A stretch of DNA of 64,000 nucleotides from Alphaproteobacteria bacterium (GTDB lineage Bacteria; Pseudomonadota; Alphaproteobacteria; SMXQ01): assembly GCA_009380075.1 (NCBI GenBank), contig WHSO01000002.1, forward strand, positions 1-64,000. Direction: 5' to 3'. A program made the position numbers and the translations under genes. Numbering within the stretch: the stretch's first letter is position 1; each line of letters opens with the position of its first letter. Shown one piece after another: positions 44,724 to 57,344 of the stretch. The notes below the pieces were generated by a model. It worked only from the letters and a program-made list of their open reading frames with translations. It was not told the origin of the DNA and did not search any database.

Positions 44724-44799
44724 GTCCCCTTCGTCTAGTGGCCTAGGACTTCGCCCTCTCACGGCGGCAACAGGGGTTCGAATCCCCTAGGGGACGCCA
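44724..44799 (+). tRNA. tRNA-Glu (anticodon CTC), CCA encoded
   Basis: gtccccttcgtctagtggcctaggacttcgccctctcacggcggcaacaggggttcgaatcccctaggggacgcca; loop CTCTCAC gives anticodon CTC. Confidence 0.93.
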
Positions 44800-44801
44800 A
44801 T
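44756..44801 (+). repeat. attL (46-bp direct repeat, tRNA-Glu 3' half)
   Basis: ctctcacggcggcaacaggggttcgaatcccctaggggacgccaat. Confidence 0.92.
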
Positions 44802-44880: not shown

Positions 44881-45348
44881 GTGGACACCAAAGCGAAACC
44901 CGAAAAGAAGCGGCGCTCGGGCATCCCAACCGGGAACGCGGGCGAGTATTTCGTCATGGGGGAGCTGCTGCGGCGCGGCTATGACGCCCAGCTGGCCGAC
45001 CGCAACACCAAGGGCTACGACCTGCTGGTCGGGCGCGCGGGCGACGGCCTTGATATGCGGCGCGTCCAGGTCAAGACCGTGCGCGCGCCGCCGTGGTACG
45101 TGCGCCGCGCTGACTTCACCGATCTGCCGGACCAGGTGACCGTCTACGTCATCATCGGTAAGGAGGACGCGAAGAAGCCTGTGCGGTACTTCATCGCGCG
45201 CAACGGCGACGTGGCCGAGCGGGTGACTGTCCCGGCGACCGGCAATTGGCCCGCGAACGGCTTCATGAGCCAGCGCGCCGTGATGGACTTCGCGGACAAC
45301 TGGGCGGCCTTGGATGCACCGGAACCCCGCCGCAAGCGCCGCGGATGA
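44881..45348 (+). CDS. PD-(D/E)XK nuclease-like hypothetical protein (element cargo)
   Basis: GNAGEYFVMGELLRRGYDAQLADRNTKGYDLLVGRAGDGLDMRRVQVKT: E...D...QVK pattern; good RBS upstream. Confidence 0.65.
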   Translation: MDTKAKPEKKRRSGIPTGNAGEYFVMGELLRRGYDAQLADRNTKGYDLLVGRAGDGLDMRRVQVKTVRAPPWYVRRADFTDLPDQVTVYVIIGKEDAKKPVRYFIARNGDVAERVTVPATGNWPANGFMSQRAVMDFADNWAALDAPEPRRKRRG

Positions 45349-45401: not shown

Positions 45402-45596
45402 ATGGCAAAATCCAAAAAGCCAAAGACGCGGAAAAGAGACGAAAAAAGCCAGTCCGAAAGGTTCGTCGAAAAGGCAAAGGAACTTGGCGCAGACGAAAGC
45501 GCCGAGGCGTTTGAGCGTGCCTTCAAAAAGGTTGTTCCGACGAGGCCTTATGGGAGCCCCTCCGCCAAACGGCGCATGAAGGCCCGTGATGCGTAA
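45402..45596 (+). CDS. Small Lys-rich hypothetical protein
   Basis: MAKSKKPKTRKRDEKSQSERFVEKAKELGADESAEAFERAFKKVVPTRPYGSPSAKRRMKARDA. Confidence 0.5.
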   Translation: MAKSKKPKTRKRDEKSQSERFVEKAKELGADESAEAFERAFKKVVPTRPYGSPSAKRRMKARDA

Positions 45597-46315
45597 AGAA
45601 TTTCCTCCGCGATCTCCGGATTGAAATCGCTAGTCAACAACATCAGCTTACCTTGAGTATGACTGATCTTGTTGCGCCAAGCGTTCTTTAGTCCTTCGAC
45701 GGTGCCCCGCACCTGCTCAAGAAACGCGAAGTTCTGTTGCTCGAATTGCGTCCGATCTTGGTGTTTTTTCTTAATCACTTTATCGAGCGCGCCAGCAACT
45801 GCCGTCCAACCTGATTTCGGGTCGACCACCTGCAAAAACTTTCCAAGCTCAATCAGGCCAACTTCGATCACCTGCACGCTATGAAACACCGCGGCGGCGT
45901 ATCGAGAAAAGGCAAAGCATTTTCGCGCTTCCTCAATGTCCACAACCGAGTCCGGGAAGCGGGCAATAATTTTCTCCCATCCCTCGCGCGGATTGTTGTA
46001 GTAATTTGCTTCTTGGCTGCTCACCGAGAAGAATCGGGGCCCGGACATTTCGTCAATCATCCGTTCCTGGATTTCGACGACCAGTTCTCTAAATTTCTCA
46101 TATGAACAATCGGATTTGGAAAGAAGATTCACAATTTTTTTTGCGCTAGCTCTCGATGCGTCCAAGCCAAGTTCAATACAGTCCTGCTCAATATCATTGA
46201 AGATCGACTGCGCTGTTGTCTTTAGTTCACCTTGCCACCGTCCACGATGGTTTGTAATTGTGGTTTCCATCATCCGTATTGCGGTGAGAAATAAGTGAGG
46301 GCGAAAAAGCTTCAT
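45548..46315 (-). CDS. HEPN-like hypothetical protein (element cargo)
   Basis: Helical protein with RYAAAVFHSVQVIEVGLIELGKFL and RNKISH (R-x4-H); start uncertain (46315 or 46273). Confidence 0.6.
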   Translation of the reverse strand: MKLFRPHLFLTAIRMMETTITNHRGRWQGELKTTAQSIFNDIEQDCIELGLDASRASAKKIVNLLSKSDCSYEKFRELVVEIQERMIDEMSGPRFFSVSSQEANYYNNPREGWEKIIARFPDSVVDIEEARKCFAFSRYAAAVFHSVQVIEVGLIELGKFLQVVDPKSGWTAVAGALDKVIKKKHQDRTQFEQQNFAFLEQVRGTVEGLKNAWRNKISHTQGKLMLLTSDFNPEIAEEILYASRAFMRRLAEGLP

Positions 46316-46487
46316 GATGTCCCACAGGCTCCATAGCCGGTGAGAACACAAAAGGCTGCGGGTATGTGCCGCGCTCCCGGCGGGGGTCATCATACACCCC
46401 CACTATCGGGGTGGGTACGGGAGATACAAAATGCGCCCCATGTCGTTTTCACGAACAGAAGCCGCCCGCGATGCCGGCCTGTCCGAC

Positions 46488-49137: not shown

Positions 49138-49569
49138 TTACGCAGCTTCCTCGGGAGCGGGAGCGGGAGCACGCTCACCGATCATCCAAAGCGGCGCGTC
49201 GTGGGGAAGGAGTTCGGGTGCGGGCTCGCCTTCGAGCAGACCGACGCGCTCTTGGCTGCGGCGAATTTCGCTCGCCAAGCGCAAAAGCAAGTCGGTGTCG
49301 ATAACTTCGCCGGCCGCCATCTTTGATTCCAGCCGCTCGCGTTCCATGCACATGGCCGCCAAGGCGCGGCACGTGTCAGCATGGCGTCCGCCGGTCTTGT
49401 CGAGGAAGGCCCGGAGCAAGTCCCGGAAGCGGCGCGCTGCGCGGGAGCGGCCGTCGGTACGGTCGAGGAATAGAGTCTTCCCGTTGGTGACGCGCGACCT
49501 GGCCTCTGGCTTGAAAGAAGCTGTCGCCGGGCTAGCAGCGGACGACTTTTCGTGCGATGTTTGCGTCAT
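49138..49569 (-). CDS. Phage/element-associated hypothetical protein
   Basis: KTLFLDRTDGRSRAARRFRDLLRAFLDKTGGRHADTCRALAAMCMERERLESKMAAGEVIDTDLLLRLASEIRR; start placed at MTQTSHEK. Confidence 0.6.
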   Translation of the reverse strand: MTQTSHEKSSAASPATASFKPEARSRVTNGKTLFLDRTDGRSRAARRFRDLLRAFLDKTGGRHADTCRALAAMCMERERLESKMAAGEVIDTDLLLRLASEIRRSQERVGLLEGEPAPELLPHDAPLWMIGERAPAPAPEEAA

Positions 49570-49803
49570 ATTTGCAATGATAAACCTACGCAACGGGGAA
49601 AGCGTTATTTTTGGGCGTTTTTCCGTGTTTGTCCGCACCCCGTTTACGCTGTTAGGGAGCGTAGCCGTGGGCGGCGCGCCGTCTTGTCGGGCTGGGTGCG
49701 GGGGGCGTTTTGGTGGTCTGGGTTTTTTGCGGCGGGAAGCAGGGACGTGTATCTGGGCGAGGGACGTTTCGGTAGTCTTTGACTTTTTATACACGAAGGG
49801 CGC

Positions 49804-50069: not shown

Positions 50070-50345
50070 CTACCCATCGGGGGCGGTGCTTGCCCTTCGC
50101 TTTATCTGGCGTCGCTTGGCGGTATTGTCGACGACGAGGCGCGGCCGAAGGCGCTCCTCTATCGAAGCGATACGCGAACGCAGGTCTGGATGTTTGTCGA
50201 GGAAGCGGTGCAGCCTACCGAGTTCCTCGCCGAGTTGCCGTCTCCGGGTCGCAACGGCAACCAGCCGGTCTACCAACTGCTGTTCGGGGCCCTTGTAACG
50301 GAAGCGGACGGTTACCTTTCGGTCGGGACGACGTCTTTCCATCAC
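50070..50345 (-). CDS. Small hypothetical protein
   Basis: MMERRRPDRKVTVRFRYKGPEQQLVDRLVAVATRRRQLGEELGRLHRFLDKHPDLRSRIASIEERLRP. Confidence 0.5.
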   Translation of the reverse strand: MMERRRPDRKVTVRFRYKGPEQQLVDRLVAVATRRRQLGEELGRLHRFLDKHPDLRSRIASIEERLRPRLVVDNTAKRRQIKRRASTAPDG

Positions 50346-50401
50346 TTTCCTCCTCTTCCTGTTCTCGCGAAGCGAAGCAATCGCGGCGGTTGCCGCGTAA
50401 C

Positions 50402-50437
50402 TCTCATAGAAGTTTCTCTCATACAGTTCTTCTCATA
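50402..50437. repeat. Three TCTCATA direct repeats
   Basis: ctctcatagaagtttctctcatacagttcttctcatacga; starts 50402, 50417, 50431. Confidence 0.6.
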
Positions 50438-50493
50438 CGACGCACCCGATTCGGTGTAAGTGCTGGCGCCGCAACAACTTGCGCAATTTCGGG

Positions 50494-50569
50494 CCACCCG
50501 TAAGGACGCCGTTCCGCCACCCGTAAGGACGCCGTTTCAGCCCCCGAAACCACCCGTAAGGACGCCGTT
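50494..50569. repeat. Three 20-bp iteron-like direct repeats ccacccgtaaggacgccgtt
   Basis: Identical copies at 50494-50513, 50517-50536, 50550-50569 (start spacing 23 and 33 nt). Confidence 0.8.
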
Positions 50570-50572
50570 TCC

Positions 50573-51691
50573 TCATGCGCGCAGCCGCGCCAGCAATCCC
50601 GCCGCCCGCCGCCGCGCGCCGTCGTGCTCAAAAGCGCGCTGCGTTTCGCGTTCGCGCTGCACGGCCTCGTGCCGTTCCTCGATCTCGTCTGCCGTCAGGC
50701 CGTCGCTGGCTCCGGGGTGCGCCTTCTCAACCGGCGCGGCCGTGCGGGCGGCCGCCGCTATGATCCGGATGCGCGTGTCATCGCCGGGTGCGGGTGCGAT
50801 GCGGAAGATGACCGCAAGGCCCAGCGCCCGCGCGTGCCGATTGACGCAGTCGAGCGCAGCGTCGATCTTGTGGTTGACGTCCGCCGCCCCCCGCGCCGAT
50901 AAGCCCAACCGCTCGACGAGCGCGTCCATGCGCATCGCTGGCCCGCCCCTTCGCACGTCCGCGCCATGTAATACAAGCCAGAGCGCCGCCACGGTGGCAC
51001 CCCCCCGGCGCGTCGGGAGCGGCCAAGGCACCTTCCCGAACTGGCCGCGCGGCAGCCACGCGTCCCCGACCGTGAGAAATACCGCGCGGTTTTCCAGGCG
51101 TAGGGTTGTCAAGATCGGAGACCGCTTGCCGATGTCGCGCGTGAGCCGTTGCAGGGCGGGTACAAGCATCGCCGCCGAGCGGGCGGAGTAGACCAATCCC
51201 GCACGGCGCAGGATTTCGCGGCGCGATATCTCGACTTCTATGTCGGCACCGGGATCAATTTTGGCACCGGGCCGACCCGCGCGCCGCCGGTCGTGGTATG
51301 CCGCACTCCCGGCGCCGCTGATTAAATCGCTCCCGACTTCGAACCCGTTGTTGGTTACGCGGTACATCTGCTCGGGCGTCAGGGCCGCGCGCGCGGTCTT
51401 GATTGCGTCCCTGCCAGCGCTCCACGCGACGGCATGGAGGTCCTCGGCGGTCGCCTGTCTCGCCGTCATGATGAGCGCGCCCGCGACAGCCAGCTCGAAA
51501 ACTGTGAGCCCAACTTCCGGTGCGTCGTCGCGATGGCGAAGGGGCGGATTCCGGAGCACGGCGCGCGGAAAGATTACGAAGCCGGATAGCGGCTTTTGTG
51601 CGGGCTTCGCGCGCTGTTTCGGCACGTAGCGCGGGACGCCGCGACGTGGCGATGGACGCGCGGCTTCGGCGCGCCTGTCAGCTTTCGTCAT
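50573..51691 (-). CDS. Hypothetical protein, possible replication-initiator-like (Rep)
   Basis: 372-aa ORF directly abutting the iteron-like repeats; C-terminal half suggestive of winged-helix content (MRMDALVERLGLSARGAADVNHKIDAALDCVNRHARALGL). Function inferred from context. Confidence 0.5.
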   Translation of the reverse strand: MTKADRRAEAARPSPRRGVPRYVPKQRAKPAQKPLSGFVIFPRAVLRNPPLRHRDDAPEVGLTVFELAVAGALIMTARQATAEDLHAVAWSAGRDAIKTARAALTPEQMYRVTNNGFEVGSDLISGAGSAAYHDRRRAGRPGAKIDPGADIEVEISRREILRRAGLVYSARSAAMLVPALQRLTRDIGKRSPILTTLRLENRAVFLTVGDAWLPRGQFGKVPWPLPTRRGGATVAALWLVLHGADVRRGGPAMRMDALVERLGLSARGAADVNHKIDAALDCVNRHARALGLAVIFRIAPAPGDDTRIRIIAAAARTAAPVEKAHPGASDGLTADEIEERHEAVQRERETQRAFEHDGARRRAAGLLARLRA

Positions 51692-52004
51692 CAGCTTGCG
51701 CGCCTCCTCCGCCGCGCGCGAGGAGTATTGCGGCGAAGGACGCGCAGGCGGCGCGCAGGCCGACGATATCCTCGGCCGTTTGGCCCGCTAGTTCTGTGGC
51801 GTGAGACGCGAGTGTCGTAACCGCTGCGGGGTAGCCCGCGTTATTGGCGATCACCACAGAGCATTCCTCAAGCTCTTTGAGATTAATTGTCGCACGGTAC
51901 AGAACGCTGGCAATTTCTTCGAATGCTGTTTCTGACATCGACGTTGCGCGTTTGGCGCCCTCTTCACGGTTTGGCATCGTCGTTCTCCTCCGTTGGATTT
52001 CCAC
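51678..52004 (-). CDS. Hypothetical protein
   Basis: Overlaps the start of the 372-aa ORF; MSETAFEEIASVLYRATINLKELEECSVVIANNAGYPAAVTTLASHATELAGQTAEDIVGL. Confidence 0.5.
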   Translation of the reverse strand: MEIQRRRTTMPNREEGAKRATSMSETAFEEIASVLYRATINLKELEECSVVIANNAGYPAAVTTLASHATELAGQTAEDIVGLRAACASFAAILLARGGGGAQADDES

Positions 52005-52062: not shown

Positions 52063-52335
52063 TCAGGATCGGTTTTCGTATTTCTTTTCGCGCTCTTTGC
52101 GCCACGCGGCTTCGGCGCGGCGTGTGATCGCGATCCGATTGGCGCTACAACGCATAATTTTGGGGGCTTTACCGGCGTTGCGGATGGCGTAAAACGCCGA
52201 CCGCGAAATTCTGCCGTTACGCCGACAGAATTCCGCAATCGTGAGGGCCGGGCCGTCGAGATTTTCGGCGGTGGCGTCGGAGCCGGAATCGGGATCGGGG
52301 TCGGGATCGCTATCGGGATTAAGTCTGCGGACCAT
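52063..52335 (-). CDS. Excisionase / AlpA-like HTH DNA-binding protein
   Basis: LTIAEFCRRNGRISRSAFYAIRNAGKAPKIMRCSANRIAITRRAEAAWRKERE, typical Xis/AlpA pattern. Confidence 0.7.
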   Translation of the reverse strand: MVRRLNPDSDPDPDPDSGSDATAENLDGPALTIAEFCRRNGRISRSAFYAIRNAGKAPKIMRCSANRIAITRRAEAAWRKEREKKYENRS

Positions 52336-52467: not shown

Positions 52468-52896
52468 TTACGACGTCGGGGGCTGGCGCTTCTTCTGGCG
52501 GCGGGCGCTGCCGTGCTTGCCGCTGAGGTATTTTTGCAGCGTCTCCGGGTCGGCGACGCCGTAGACACGCGCGGCGCTTTCGACGGCCTCGTACCGATTG
52601 CGGCCGAGTTCGACTTCGCGCTTCACGGCGTCGGCGGCCCACAGCAACCGGCGCGCGGCATCGGACAGGTCATAAGCAGGCGTGGGACGCCCGCCTTGCG
52701 GGCGCTTCAAATTGTAACGGCCCAGCAGGTCCGCGATGAGCCAGCGCGCATCGGCGGGCAGGGGGGCGTCGGACTTCAGGAGCGCGACGAGCGGTGCCGC
52801 GTCGCGGGTGCGGTCAACGGCCCGCAGGGCATCGATCCACGGCTGCACGTCGCCCCCGGGGAAGAGCCAGCGCGCAAATAAGAGTCGCCTCACCAT
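52468..52896 (-). CDS. Hypothetical protein downstream of the integrase
   Basis: MVRRLLFARWLFPGGDVQPWIDALRAVDRTRDAAPLVALLKSDAPLPADARWLIADLLGRY...; ATGGTGA overlap with integrase stop. Confidence 0.6.
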   Translation of the reverse strand: MVRRLLFARWLFPGGDVQPWIDALRAVDRTRDAAPLVALLKSDAPLPADARWLIADLLGRYNLKRPQGGRPTPAYDLSDAARRLLWAADAVKREVELGRNRYEAVESAARVYGVADPETLQKYLSGKHGSARRQKKRQPPTS

Positions 52897-54245
52897 TGCT
52901 TGCCTACACCCCCGGCCGCAAACGGGACGACGCCGGGTTCGGTGGCGGGCACCAGCGGCACCACCGCCCGCGCCGCCATCTCGTCGAGACCGTAGGCAAT
53001 CCATGCGGCGTAGTGAACCTCGATCATCTTGGTGCTGGTGTCGTGGATTTTCGCCACCAGCGCAATCGGCAGACCGGCGCGGAGGCCCCTTACGATGCTT
53101 GAATGCCGCAAGGCATAGGGAATGACGTCTGGCGCCTTCGCCCGCTCGCGGATCCCCCGCCACGCCCGGGTCAGCTCGGCCCCCGACTGCCACGCCCCGC
53201 GTCGGTCGCGAACCCAGCGGATGCGTGGCCCCGGGACCTGGACGTGCTGCCAGCGTTCCAACAGCGGCGCGCTCTTGGCGCGCCCCGTCGTCGCCGGTAG
53301 CAACGCGTCGAGCACGTCGCGGCCGACCGGCACCGGAATGCGCTCCACCTTCCGGCCCTTGCCCTTGCGGGACGGCGGCAGCAGAAGGCGGCCTTTGTCG
53401 CGCTGGACGTCGCCGACCAGCATCCGCGCTACCTGCCCGAACCGGGCACCCGTCGCGGCCAAGACGACTACGAGCCGGAAAAGGTCGCCGCCCGCCTCGC
53501 GCTCGTCGTCCACTTCCCGCGCCGCCCTGATGAGCGCCCCGACCTGGGCGTCTGTCAGGATCTGGTTGTCGCGCGCGCCCGGCTCTGCGTCGTCGGGGCG
53601 TTCGGGCGCGCGCAACCCGTGCTTGATGGTCGCGGCGAAGTCGGCCCCCAGCCGCTTCCTGTGGATCCAATAGGCGGCGTTGAGCGCGGCGCGGAAGTCG
53701 CTCGTCGTCCGCGCTACGGTCGAAGCCCGCAGGGTGGGCGGCAACGCGGCGCGCCACGCGGTCAGCGCGTCCTCGTCCAGCTTCTCGAGGGTGGTCGCCG
53801 CCAGCTTGTCTCCCAAGACATAGCGGGTGAGGCGCGTGGCGGCGTCCGACCGCACAGCGCGTCCGCGCCGCGCGGCCTCGCGCGTGTCGCGGAAGGTGAT
53901 GTAATCCTCAACCACCTTGGCCACGGTCGGAAGCGCGCCGAGGCCGACCGCCTTGTGTGCGCGCGCCACCGCCTCCGCCCGCGCCTTGGCCTGGGCTTGG
54001 TCGAAGGAGAGCACCAGAACGCCGTCGGCGTCGGCGAGGTCATCGGCGATGCCGAGCCCTTCGGTCGCGTAGCGCTGGTTGCCGAGGTAGCGCCGCACCC
54101 ACCACGTGCCGTTCTTGCCCGCGATGCGGCGGTAGCCGAGGTGCAGCCCCCGCTCGACGCCCCGCCAGTAGATGTTGCCACGCGGCTTCAGCTTCGCGCG
54201 TGCGCTGCGGGAGCCGATCTGTGCGTCCTTCACCACCCGTGCCAT
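52890..54245 (-). CDS. Tyrosine-type site-specific integrase
   Basis: LVVVLAATGARFGQVARMLVGDVQ (box I Arg) and IPYALRHSSIVRGLRAGLPIALVAKIHDTSTKMIEVHYAAW (box II with Tyr); next to attR. Confidence 0.88.
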   Translation of the reverse strand: MARVVKDAQIGSRSARAKLKPRGNIYWRGVERGLHLGYRRIAGKNGTWWVRRYLGNQRYATEGLGIADDLADADGVLVLSFDQAQAKARAEAVARAHKAVGLGALPTVAKVVEDYITFRDTREAARRGRAVRSDAATRLTRYVLGDKLAATTLEKLDEDALTAWRAALPPTLRASTVARTTSDFRAALNAAYWIHRKRLGADFAATIKHGLRAPERPDDAEPGARDNQILTDAQVGALIRAAREVDDEREAGGDLFRLVVVLAATGARFGQVARMLVGDVQRDKGRLLLPPSRKGKGRKVERIPVPVGRDVLDALLPATTGRAKSAPLLERWQHVQVPGPRIRWVRDRRGAWQSGAELTRAWRGIRERAKAPDVIPYALRHSSIVRGLRAGLPIALVAKIHDTSTKMIEVHYAAWIAYGLDEMAARAVVPLVPATEPGVVPFAAGGVGKQW

Positions 54246-54394: not shown

Positions 54395-54440
54395 CTCTCA
54401 CGGCGGCAACAGGGGTTCGAATCCCCTAGGGGACGCCAAT
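54395..54440 (+). repeat. attR (46-bp direct repeat, tRNA-Glu 3' fragment)
   Basis: ctctcacggcggcaacaggggttcgaatcccctaggggacgccaat, identical to 44756-44801. Confidence 0.92.
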
Positions 54441-54558: not shown

Positions 54559-57344
54559 ATGCGCCTTTCCTGGAACGAGATCAGAGCGCGGGCGGCTACC
54601 TTTGCCCGTGACTGGGCTGGCGAAGGCTATGAGAAGGGCCAGACGCAGCTTTTCTACCGGGATTTCTTCGACGTGTTCGGGATGCCGGTCCGGCGCGTGG
54701 CGACGTTCGAAGAACCGGTCAAGAACCTAGGCGACAAGCGCGGCTTTATCGACCTGTTTTGGAAAGGCGTCCTTCTGGTCGAGCAGAAGAGCGTGGGTCT
54801 CGATCTCAAGAAGGCGAAGGCACAGGCCCTCAATTACTTCCCGGGATTGAAGGACGCGGATCTTCCCCGCTATGTCCTGTTGAGCGACTTCAAGTCCTTT
54901 GAACTGTACGACCTGGAGGAAGACGAACAGGTCGTCTTCCCGCTCTCCGAACTTCCGCGGCATGTCGAGAAGTTCGGTTTTATCCTTGGCGTCCAGAAAC
55001 GCTCATTCAAGGATCAGGATCCGGTAAACATCGAAGCGTCCGAATTGGTCGGCAAGCTTCACGATGCCCTCAAGGACTCCGGTTATTCGGGGCACGATCT
55101 TGAACAATTCCTCGTGCGTATCGTGTTCTGTCTTTTTGCGGACGACACCGGCATCTTCGAACCACGTGGAATCTTTCTCGATCTTCTCGAAACGCGAACG
55201 CGGGAGGACGGCTCCGACCTTGGCGGATGGCTCACGCAACTCTTTCAGGTTCTGAATACGTCGGAGGAGGAGCGTTCCAGGAATCTCGATTCGGACCTCG
55301 CACGGTTTCCTTACGTGAACGGTGACCTGTTCCGTGATGCTTTGCGCATTCCTTCCTTCGACTCCGGGATGCGCCAACGCCTCCTCGATACCTGCCATTT
55401 TGACTGGTCGCTCATTTCTCCAGCCATTTTCGGCGCCCTGTTCCAGTCCGTGATGAACAAGCAGGAACGCCGTGCGCTCGGCGCGCACTACACCACGGAA
55501 AAGAACATTCTCAAGGTGATCTGCCCGCTGTTTCTGGACGACCTGCGGGCGGAATTCACCCGTCTCAAGGCAAGGCGGGACAGCCGGCGGATGCCGGAAT
55601 TGCTCGCCTTTCAGGAAAAGCTTGGGCGCCTGCGATTTCTGGATCCCGCCTGCGGATGCGGGAACTTCCTGATCATCGCTTACCGAGAGTTGCGCGCCCT
55701 CGAAATCGACGTCCTGCGGGAAGTTCGCCCCAAGGGGCAATACGACGCGCTGGCCGATCTCCTTTCAATGATCAACGTGGACCAGTTCTACGGGATCGAG
55801 ATCGGAGAATTCCCCGTTCGCATCGCCGAGGTTGCGCTGTGGATGATGGACCACATCATGAACAACCGACTGAGCCTTGAGTTCGGCGAAACCTACGTCC
55901 GCATACCCCTTCGTAAATCCCCGCATATTCTTCATGCCGATGCGCTGGAGGTGGATTGGGCCTCTCATCTGCCGCCGGACCAATGCTCCTACGTCTTCGG
56001 CAATCCACCGTTTATCGGCGCGAAGTACCAGAGCCTGGAGCAGCGCGCGCAGGTGCGCCGGATAGCCGCGCTGAGCAAGAGCGGCGGCACGCTCGATTAC
56101 GTCACCGCGTGGTTCATTGCCGCGGGGAAATACGTGCAGAGAGGGAACGCGAAGATCGGATTCGTTGCGACCAACTCGATTACCCAGGGCGAGCAGGTGG
56201 CGCAGCTCTGGCCGGTCATCTTCGACCGTTGCAAGGTGGAGATTGCCTTCGCCCACCGCACATTCGCATGGGGATCGGACGCTCGCGGGAAGGCTCATGT
56301 CCATGTCGTGATCATCGGTCTTGCCAAAGGCGCCGACGCGCCAAAGGACAAGCGGTTGTTTTCCTACGACGATATCAATGGAGAACCGCACGAAAGTATA
56401 CATGCGGTGCTTACGCCCTCTACCTTTTCGATGCCAGCGGCTTGACTGACCCGCATATCGTCGTGCGTGAAGCAAATGAACCGCTGAATGGATTGACTAG
56501 ACTAATTATCGGATCAAAGCCCATCGATGGCGGTCACTATATCTTTACGCAAGAACAGAAAGATGCATTTCTAGCCCAGGAACCGGCGGCGGCACCGTTA
56601 ATGCATCCGTATGTCGGAAGCCATGAGTTTCTCAATGGCAGCATTCGTTACATTCTCTACCTAGCAAATGCTTCGCCTGACTTTCTGAACATTCTTCCAA
56701 GAGTCAAAGACCGTATCGCGGAAGTAAGAGTGTTTCGCCAAAAGAGCAAGAGCAAACCGACACGAGAGCTCGCAAAGTATCCCACGTCGTTTCATGTAAA
56801 CGTGGTTCCAGCCAATCCCTTTTTGGTGATTCCTGAGGTCAGTTCGGAGCGCAGGGAATATGTACCTATTGGTTGGATGGAGCCACCAACGATTCCGAGC
56901 AATCTGGTCCGGATTATTGAGAATGCGAACAAGTCCCTATTTGCTCTCTTGACTTCGGCCATGCACATGAGTTGGTTGCGGCACGTTGGTGGTCGTCTCA
57001 AGAGCGACTATCGCTATTCCATCGGCCTCGTGTACAACACCTTCCCCGTGCATCAAATAAAGGTCGACAATTGGGAGAAACTCGAACCGCTGGCGGAGGC
57101 AGTGCTGGCCGCACGGGCGGCGCATCCGGGGGCAACACTTGCGGATTTGTACGATCCAGACCTTATGCCTCCTGATCTCAGGAGGGCGCATAGCTCGATC
57201 GACCGTGCGGTCGATCGCCTCTACAGGCCCAAGGGTTTCACCTCGGATCGCGAGAGGGTGGAGCACCTGTTCGGACTCTATGAAAAAATGGTGGCGCCGT
57301 TGCAAGCTTCGCCACGGGGTAGGAAACGCATACGTAAACGATAA
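54559..57344 (+). pseudogene. MmeI-like Type IIL/IIG restriction-methyltransferase, split by one frameshift at ~56416-56421
   Basis: D..EQK nuclease-like motif (IDLFWKGVLLVEQK), FLDPACGCGNFL and NPPFIGA methylase motifs in frame of 54559..56445; C-terminal TRD-like region continues in frame of 55956..57344 (YLFDASGLTDPHIVVREANEPLNGLTRLIIGSKPIDGGHYIF). Confidence 0.82.

Follow-up and report, generated by a model that had tools for sequence, protein, structure and literature searches.

What is the role of two arrays of short direct repeats that share a single intergenic gap beside a gene of no recognized family? The gap lies in a 64,000-nucleotide stretch of contig WHSO01000002.1 from an alphaproteobacterial genome (GenBank assembly GCA_009380075.1; the whole stretch is referred to here as the window). 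It is part of a 9.6-kb integrated element and separates two minus-strand genes that encode proteins of 372 and 91 amino acids (aa). Judging from the sequence and its surroundings, we think it rather likely that the gap is the element's own theta-type origin of replication and that the 372-aa protein is a candidate iteron-binding initiator. This reading is favored because the repeats belong to a bounded mobile element, because they and the 372-aa gene fill a slot that replication genes hold in related loci, and because their layout resembles that of oriV in the integrative element SGI1.

The 227-bp gap contains a 20-mer (AACGGCGTCCTTACGGGTGG/CCACCCGTAAGGACGCCGTT) in exactly three mismatch-free copies, together with the heptamer TCTCATA (TATGAGA on the minus strand) in three copies within 36 bp, at 50402, 50417 and 50431. 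The original prediction, which was made from the letters of the window, had placed both sets of repeats correctly. With up to three mismatches allowed, the 20-mer has no further match in the window, where shuffled sequences give an expectation of 0, and none besides these three copies in the 3.54-Mb assembly; IMG/VR contains no exact match to it. An exact 10-mer present three times was obtained in 1 of 5,000 shuffles of the whole gap. For the heptamers, a triplet of any heptamer within 45 bp turned up in 3 of 5,000 shuffles of that intergenic stretch, and comparable triplets are found in 6 of the 435 like tiles of the window. Because those six tiles hold such a triplet, the heptamer cluster is real but far less unusual than the 20-mers. 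As direct repeats of 17–22 bp in noncoding DNA, the 20-mers are of the kind that iteron replicons carry.

An improbable explanation for the 20-mers is that they arose by a chance local duplication and are now functionless, in an element undergoing decay. Copies 1 and 2 almost adjoin and have 21 bp in common, and copies 2 and 3 are the same over 22 bp, as a recent duplication would leave them; nothing would appear conserved because nothing related is known. The copies are exact over 20 bp, however, despite spacers that vary in both length and sequence, which suggests selection on the 20-mer, and the surrounding genes are open and ordered.

Because the minus strand encodes the 372-aa protein, the repeats lie downstream of its gene, directly after the stop codon, and upstream of the 91-aa gene on the same strand. 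They do adjoin the 372-aa gene, as had been predicted, on the side of its stop codon. The main rival explanation makes use of this arrangement. The region would be a promoter and the repeats its operators, with the 372-aa protein or an AlpA-like protein of the element binding the 20-mers and/or the heptamers to control the genes for the 91-, 81- and 218-aa proteins and later ones. An array between codirectional genes and upstream of the 91-aa start codon is suitably placed for a promoter, and the heptamers are 57–92 bp upstream of the start of the 91-aa gene. We nevertheless consider an operator function unlikely. The gap yielded no sigma-70-like promoter, although alphaproteobacterial promoters could escape detection, and no partial copy of the 20-mer of at least 9 bp occurs elsewhere in the element. 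In addition, direct repeats of this length that lack dyad symmetry are commoner as iterons than as operators, and related loci hold a replication module at this point. Folding of the gap DNA is unremarkable (z −0.74), and the Rfam search returned no RNA except tRNA.

At each end of the element that hosts the array stands an exact 46-bp copy of the 3′ end of a tRNA-Glu gene (the attL and attR sites), and a tyrosine integrase gene lies beside one of the two copies. The exact duplication at tRNA-Glu and the integrase define a bounded mobile element, integrated in a tRNA gene. The 451-aa integrase scores slightly under the cut-off of the Pfam family Phage_integrase (E 1e-5, 25.7 bits; cut-off 27.1 bits) and has 24 relatives in GTDB genomes, with 35–53% identity. 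A congener shares this tRNA-Glu and its left flank, and no element proteins were found in the stretch examined next to the congener's gene. A 98% identical copy of the 46-bp att core stands at a contig end in another genome of the family (G008, contig C131, 12757–12802; L093), which suggests that this tRNA-Glu is a site of insertion there as well. Judged by its context, the present element appears to be an integrated one that could replicate only after excision, and the original prediction of episomal replication is narrowed accordingly: the origin is retained and the free plasmid is not.

In size, the element is like small satellites or prophage remnants, and relatives of its integrase also occur in phage-like contigs and in loci with tail genes. 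It is conceivable that the repeats serve some other DNA transaction of a phage satellite, either as a packaging site for a terminase subunit or as an accessory excision site. We regard this as highly improbable, given that searches with Pfam, PHROGs and NCBIfam found no convincing terminase, packaging or capsid-remodeling gene in the element (several of its genes have no known family) and that the array lies ~4 kb away from the closer of the two att sites, too distant for a usual accessory excision site.

Gene order in loci with related integrases bears on the role of the gap more directly. A profile of the integrase yielded 42 IMG/VR contigs, and a narrower search yielded 25 genome loci, all of them from organisms whose names are those of alphaproteobacterial genera or groups, except one from Tahibacter, which is a short weak match. 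Among the 23 loci with enough sequence for a positional count, 15 encode a protein with a PHROG or Pfam match to replication functions downstream of the integrase (L098, L100, L103, L104, L105, L109, L110 and L114–L121). The types found at that place are primase, primase-helicase, DnaB/RepA-type ATPase, DUF3987 and an O-like initiator, the last with an HTH_36 domain in L098. In the other eight loci, where some of the genes were scanned, the sequence read either lacks a gene of this kind or includes large unassigned genes. The closest parallels are three elements from Aquibium and Methylobacterium (L117, L120 and L121). Their integrases are 47–48% identical to the present one, and a relative of the element's 218-aa protein follows in the same order, with a replication ATPase, helicase or DUF3987 protein between the two. 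Here, the 372-aa gene and the repeats fill the slot between the integrase and the 218-aa gene, whereas those elements have a helicase or primase-type ATPase in place of the 372-aa protein. This positional evidence is suggestive of a replication role for the 372-aa gene and the repeats, and is not proof. No direct-repeat array of at least 13 bp was found within 9 kb downstream of the integrase in these three elements. Repeat arrays seen in contigs with related integrases were set aside, as their arrangement is unlike that of the present gap.

If the gap is an origin, the integrase would cut the element out as a circle, and the 372-aa protein would then bind the three 20-bp direct repeats. Binding may open the adjoining AT-richer DNA that holds the TATGAGA heptamers, where the helicase and polymerase of the host (or of a helper phage) would be loaded for a transient round of theta replication. 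The G+C content is 48% over 50400–50490, compared with 64% across the element.

Several observations weigh against an origin at this site. The candidate unwinding region is only ~52% A+T (36% for the element), and the element reaches its highest A+T content over 60 bp at 46 kb, outside the gap. The start-to-start distances of the 20-mers, 23 and 33 bp, amount to 2.19 and 3.14 helical turns (10.5 bp per turn), so that successive copies are turned by ~50–70 degrees and share one face of the helix only roughly; the spacing near two and three turns noted in the original prediction is a fair approximation and not exact phasing. A search of positions 50346–50572 found no DnaA box (TTATCCACA, up to two mismatches). 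To our knowledge, DnaA boxes are not universal in iteron-type origins. No related locus was found to share the repeats. Moreover, replication genes commonly follow the integrase in temperate phages and prophages, and because prophages share this order, the argument from the slot is suggestive and unspecific.

The remaining points against an origin concern the 372-aa protein, whose gene stands where a recognizable initiator (Rep) gene would be expected and has no family match. It has no relative in Pfam (no match up to E 1), PHROGs, NCBIfam, PADLOC or PDB sequences, none in phage and plasmid records (tblastn to E 10), none by pattern scans of IMG/VR and GTDB contigs, and no credible one in sets of 191, 385 and 399 genomes that represent relatives, the class and the phylum, respectively, and that overlap. 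No search thus found a homologue, in keeping with the earlier remark that the protein has no obvious family. Two matches with E values of ~3e-4 and 5e-4 were dismissed, one being a spurious 74-aa frame in flagellar genes and the other interrupted by four stops. Profiles of RPA and Rep_3, built with members from the same class, score the protein no better than shuffles. Of the proposed Rep/ori module, then, the origin is the best-supported reading of the gap, and the protein shows no profile similarity to RPA or Rep_3 initiators. AlphaFold models of the whole protein and of residues 140–318, built without relatives, were unusable (mean pLDDT 40.6 and 38.2). In these models, a helix-helix-hairpin falls at 157–208 and two helices at 255–290, an arrangement that a tandem winged-helix protein could have. 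The confidence of the models is so low that this carries no weight, and the winged-helix idea is a guess.

Taken as an origin, the gap probably functions in the manner of iteron replicons carried by integrated islands, with a protein that falls outside the initiator families tested. The kind of system is known; the initiator is an orphan and possibly new. A bolder idea, which we offer tentatively and with some doubt, is that the 372-aa protein founds a family of iteron-binding initiators with no sequence kinship to the known ones, and that a tRNA-integrated alphaproteobacterial element, possibly a phage satellite, swapped the helicase or primase of its relatives for an initiator and iterons. 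If that is the case, an apparently unrelated replication initiator joins the known set, and the locus would be a compact test case for the exchange of replication modules (helicase/primase versus initiator plus iterons) by integrated elements and satellites at a fixed place in the gene order.

The features of the element are collected in Table 1.

Table 1. Features of the integrated element and its candidate origin (window positions)
Feature	Position	Strand	Basis or remark
Iteron-like direct repeat, copy 1	50494..50513	-	AACGGCGTCCTTACGGGTGG on minus strand, exact match
Iteron-like direct repeat, copy 2	50517..50536	-	22-bp identity with copy 3
Iteron-like direct repeat, copy 3	50550..50569	-	starts 3 bp past stop codon of 372-aa gene
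Three TATGAGA heptamers, candidate unwinding region or operator	50402..50437	-	putative function
Whole intergenic candidate origin	50346..50572	.	between 372-aa and 91-aa genes
372-aa orphan protein, candidate replication initiator	50573..51691	-	position matches replication slot of related loci
attL, 46-bp core, 3′ end of tRNA-Glu(CTC) (44724-44799)	44756..44801	+	exact 46-bp repeat; tRNA
attR, second copy of 46-bp core	54395..54440	+	exact repeat
Tyrosine integrase, 451 aa, just inside attR	52890..54245	-	PHROG integrase, E 4e-24
90-aa AlpA/Cox-like helix-turn-helix protein, candidate excisionase or regulator	52063..52335	-	PHROG Cox-like, weak, E 0.05
108-aa small protein, overlaps start of 372-aa gene	51678..52004	-	open reading frame only
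91-aa protein, directly downstream of candidate origin	50070..50345	-	open reading frame
218-aa protein	49138..49794	-	has a block conserved near three related integrases, at 33-41% identity

On the minus strand, the order from the integrase is integrase, 90-aa AlpA-like protein, 108-aa protein, 372-aa protein and repeats, followed by proteins of 91, 81, 218, 221, 198, 166, 146 and 281 aa. The 90-aa protein has tblastn matches to open reading frames near related integrases, with E values down to 8e-10. Neither the 108-aa protein (above cut-off) nor the 91-aa protein has a family in Pfam, PHROGs or NCBIfam. The 218-aa protein was recognized in the three related loci by tblastn (E 3e-12 to 4e-7) and by alignment. 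Its block RSRVTNG...DGRS...RR.RDL...GG is common to the genes beside the replication genes of the Aquibium and Methylobacterium elements, and the protein may belong to a widespread unnamed protein family of phages and mobile elements; a weak match in genome G081 was set aside for an internal stop. The 281-aa protein (45548–46393), encoded at the element's inner end, has a clearly lower G+C content (~51–53%) and no family, and its gene looks like cargo. Near the tRNA-Glu gene, a 155-aa PD-(D/E)XK-like frame on the plus strand (44881–45348) matches Pfam PDDEXK_5 below cut-off (E 0.009).

Just beyond attR is an MmeI-like type IIL restriction-modification gene (54559–57344). It is spread over two frames of 628 and 462 aa, and is therefore frameshifted or affected by an assembly error. 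Elsewhere in the window there are near-identical pairs at 1453–2519/3369–4435, 57461–57521/59057–59117 and 61268–61518/62444–62694, with constant offsets of 1916, 1596 and 1176 bp, which are likely tandem paralogous genes.

Among known systems, iteron plasmids offer the most general comparison. The examples given in one account have two to seven iterons, three in the case of pSC101, mostly of 17–22 bp (PMC4980987), and short repeats are usual in the unwinding region (PMC4081077). Like pSC101, F, R6K and RK2, with their Rep_3 and TrfA types of initiator, the present locus combines three to several direct repeats of ~20 bp, a nearby region of short repeats and an adjacent candidate initiator gene. 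It differs from them in that the 372-aa protein has no Rep_3 or RPA profile similarity and in that the element is chromosomally integrated. The PLE satellites of Vibrio cholerae phages resemble it in the latter respect. They carry an initiator, RepA, without a helicase or primase and depend on others for these (PMC7145576), as the present element may do with its candidate initiator and its own iterons. PLE iterons hold inverted repeats (PMC7145576), and the 20-mers do not.

The closest likeness in layout is to SGI1, whose oriV was mapped by deletion to a site immediately downstream of rep and comprises four GC-rich 17-bp iterons and three imperfect copies of an 8-bp repeat in an AT-rich part (PMC7433901). 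The SGI1 rep gene is S003, and its product has a RepA_C domain (PF04796; PMC7433901), whereas the 372-aa protein has no recognized domain. SGI1 oriV also has a putative DnaA box, which the gap lacks within two mismatches, and SGI1 replication is set off by IncC plasmids, whereas no helper is known here; the repeat sequences of the two are unrelated. What they have in common is the plan: an integrative element with an origin right after an initiator gene (a candidate in our case), a few GC-rich direct repeats of 17–20 bp, and three short repeats in AT-richer neighboring DNA. In the present locus, this plan reads as a stop codon, three GC-rich 20-bp repeats and then DNA of lower G+C content with three heptamers. 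If the gap is indeed an origin, the element would be one more integrated element with a recognizable iteron origin, of which SGI1 is the proven case.
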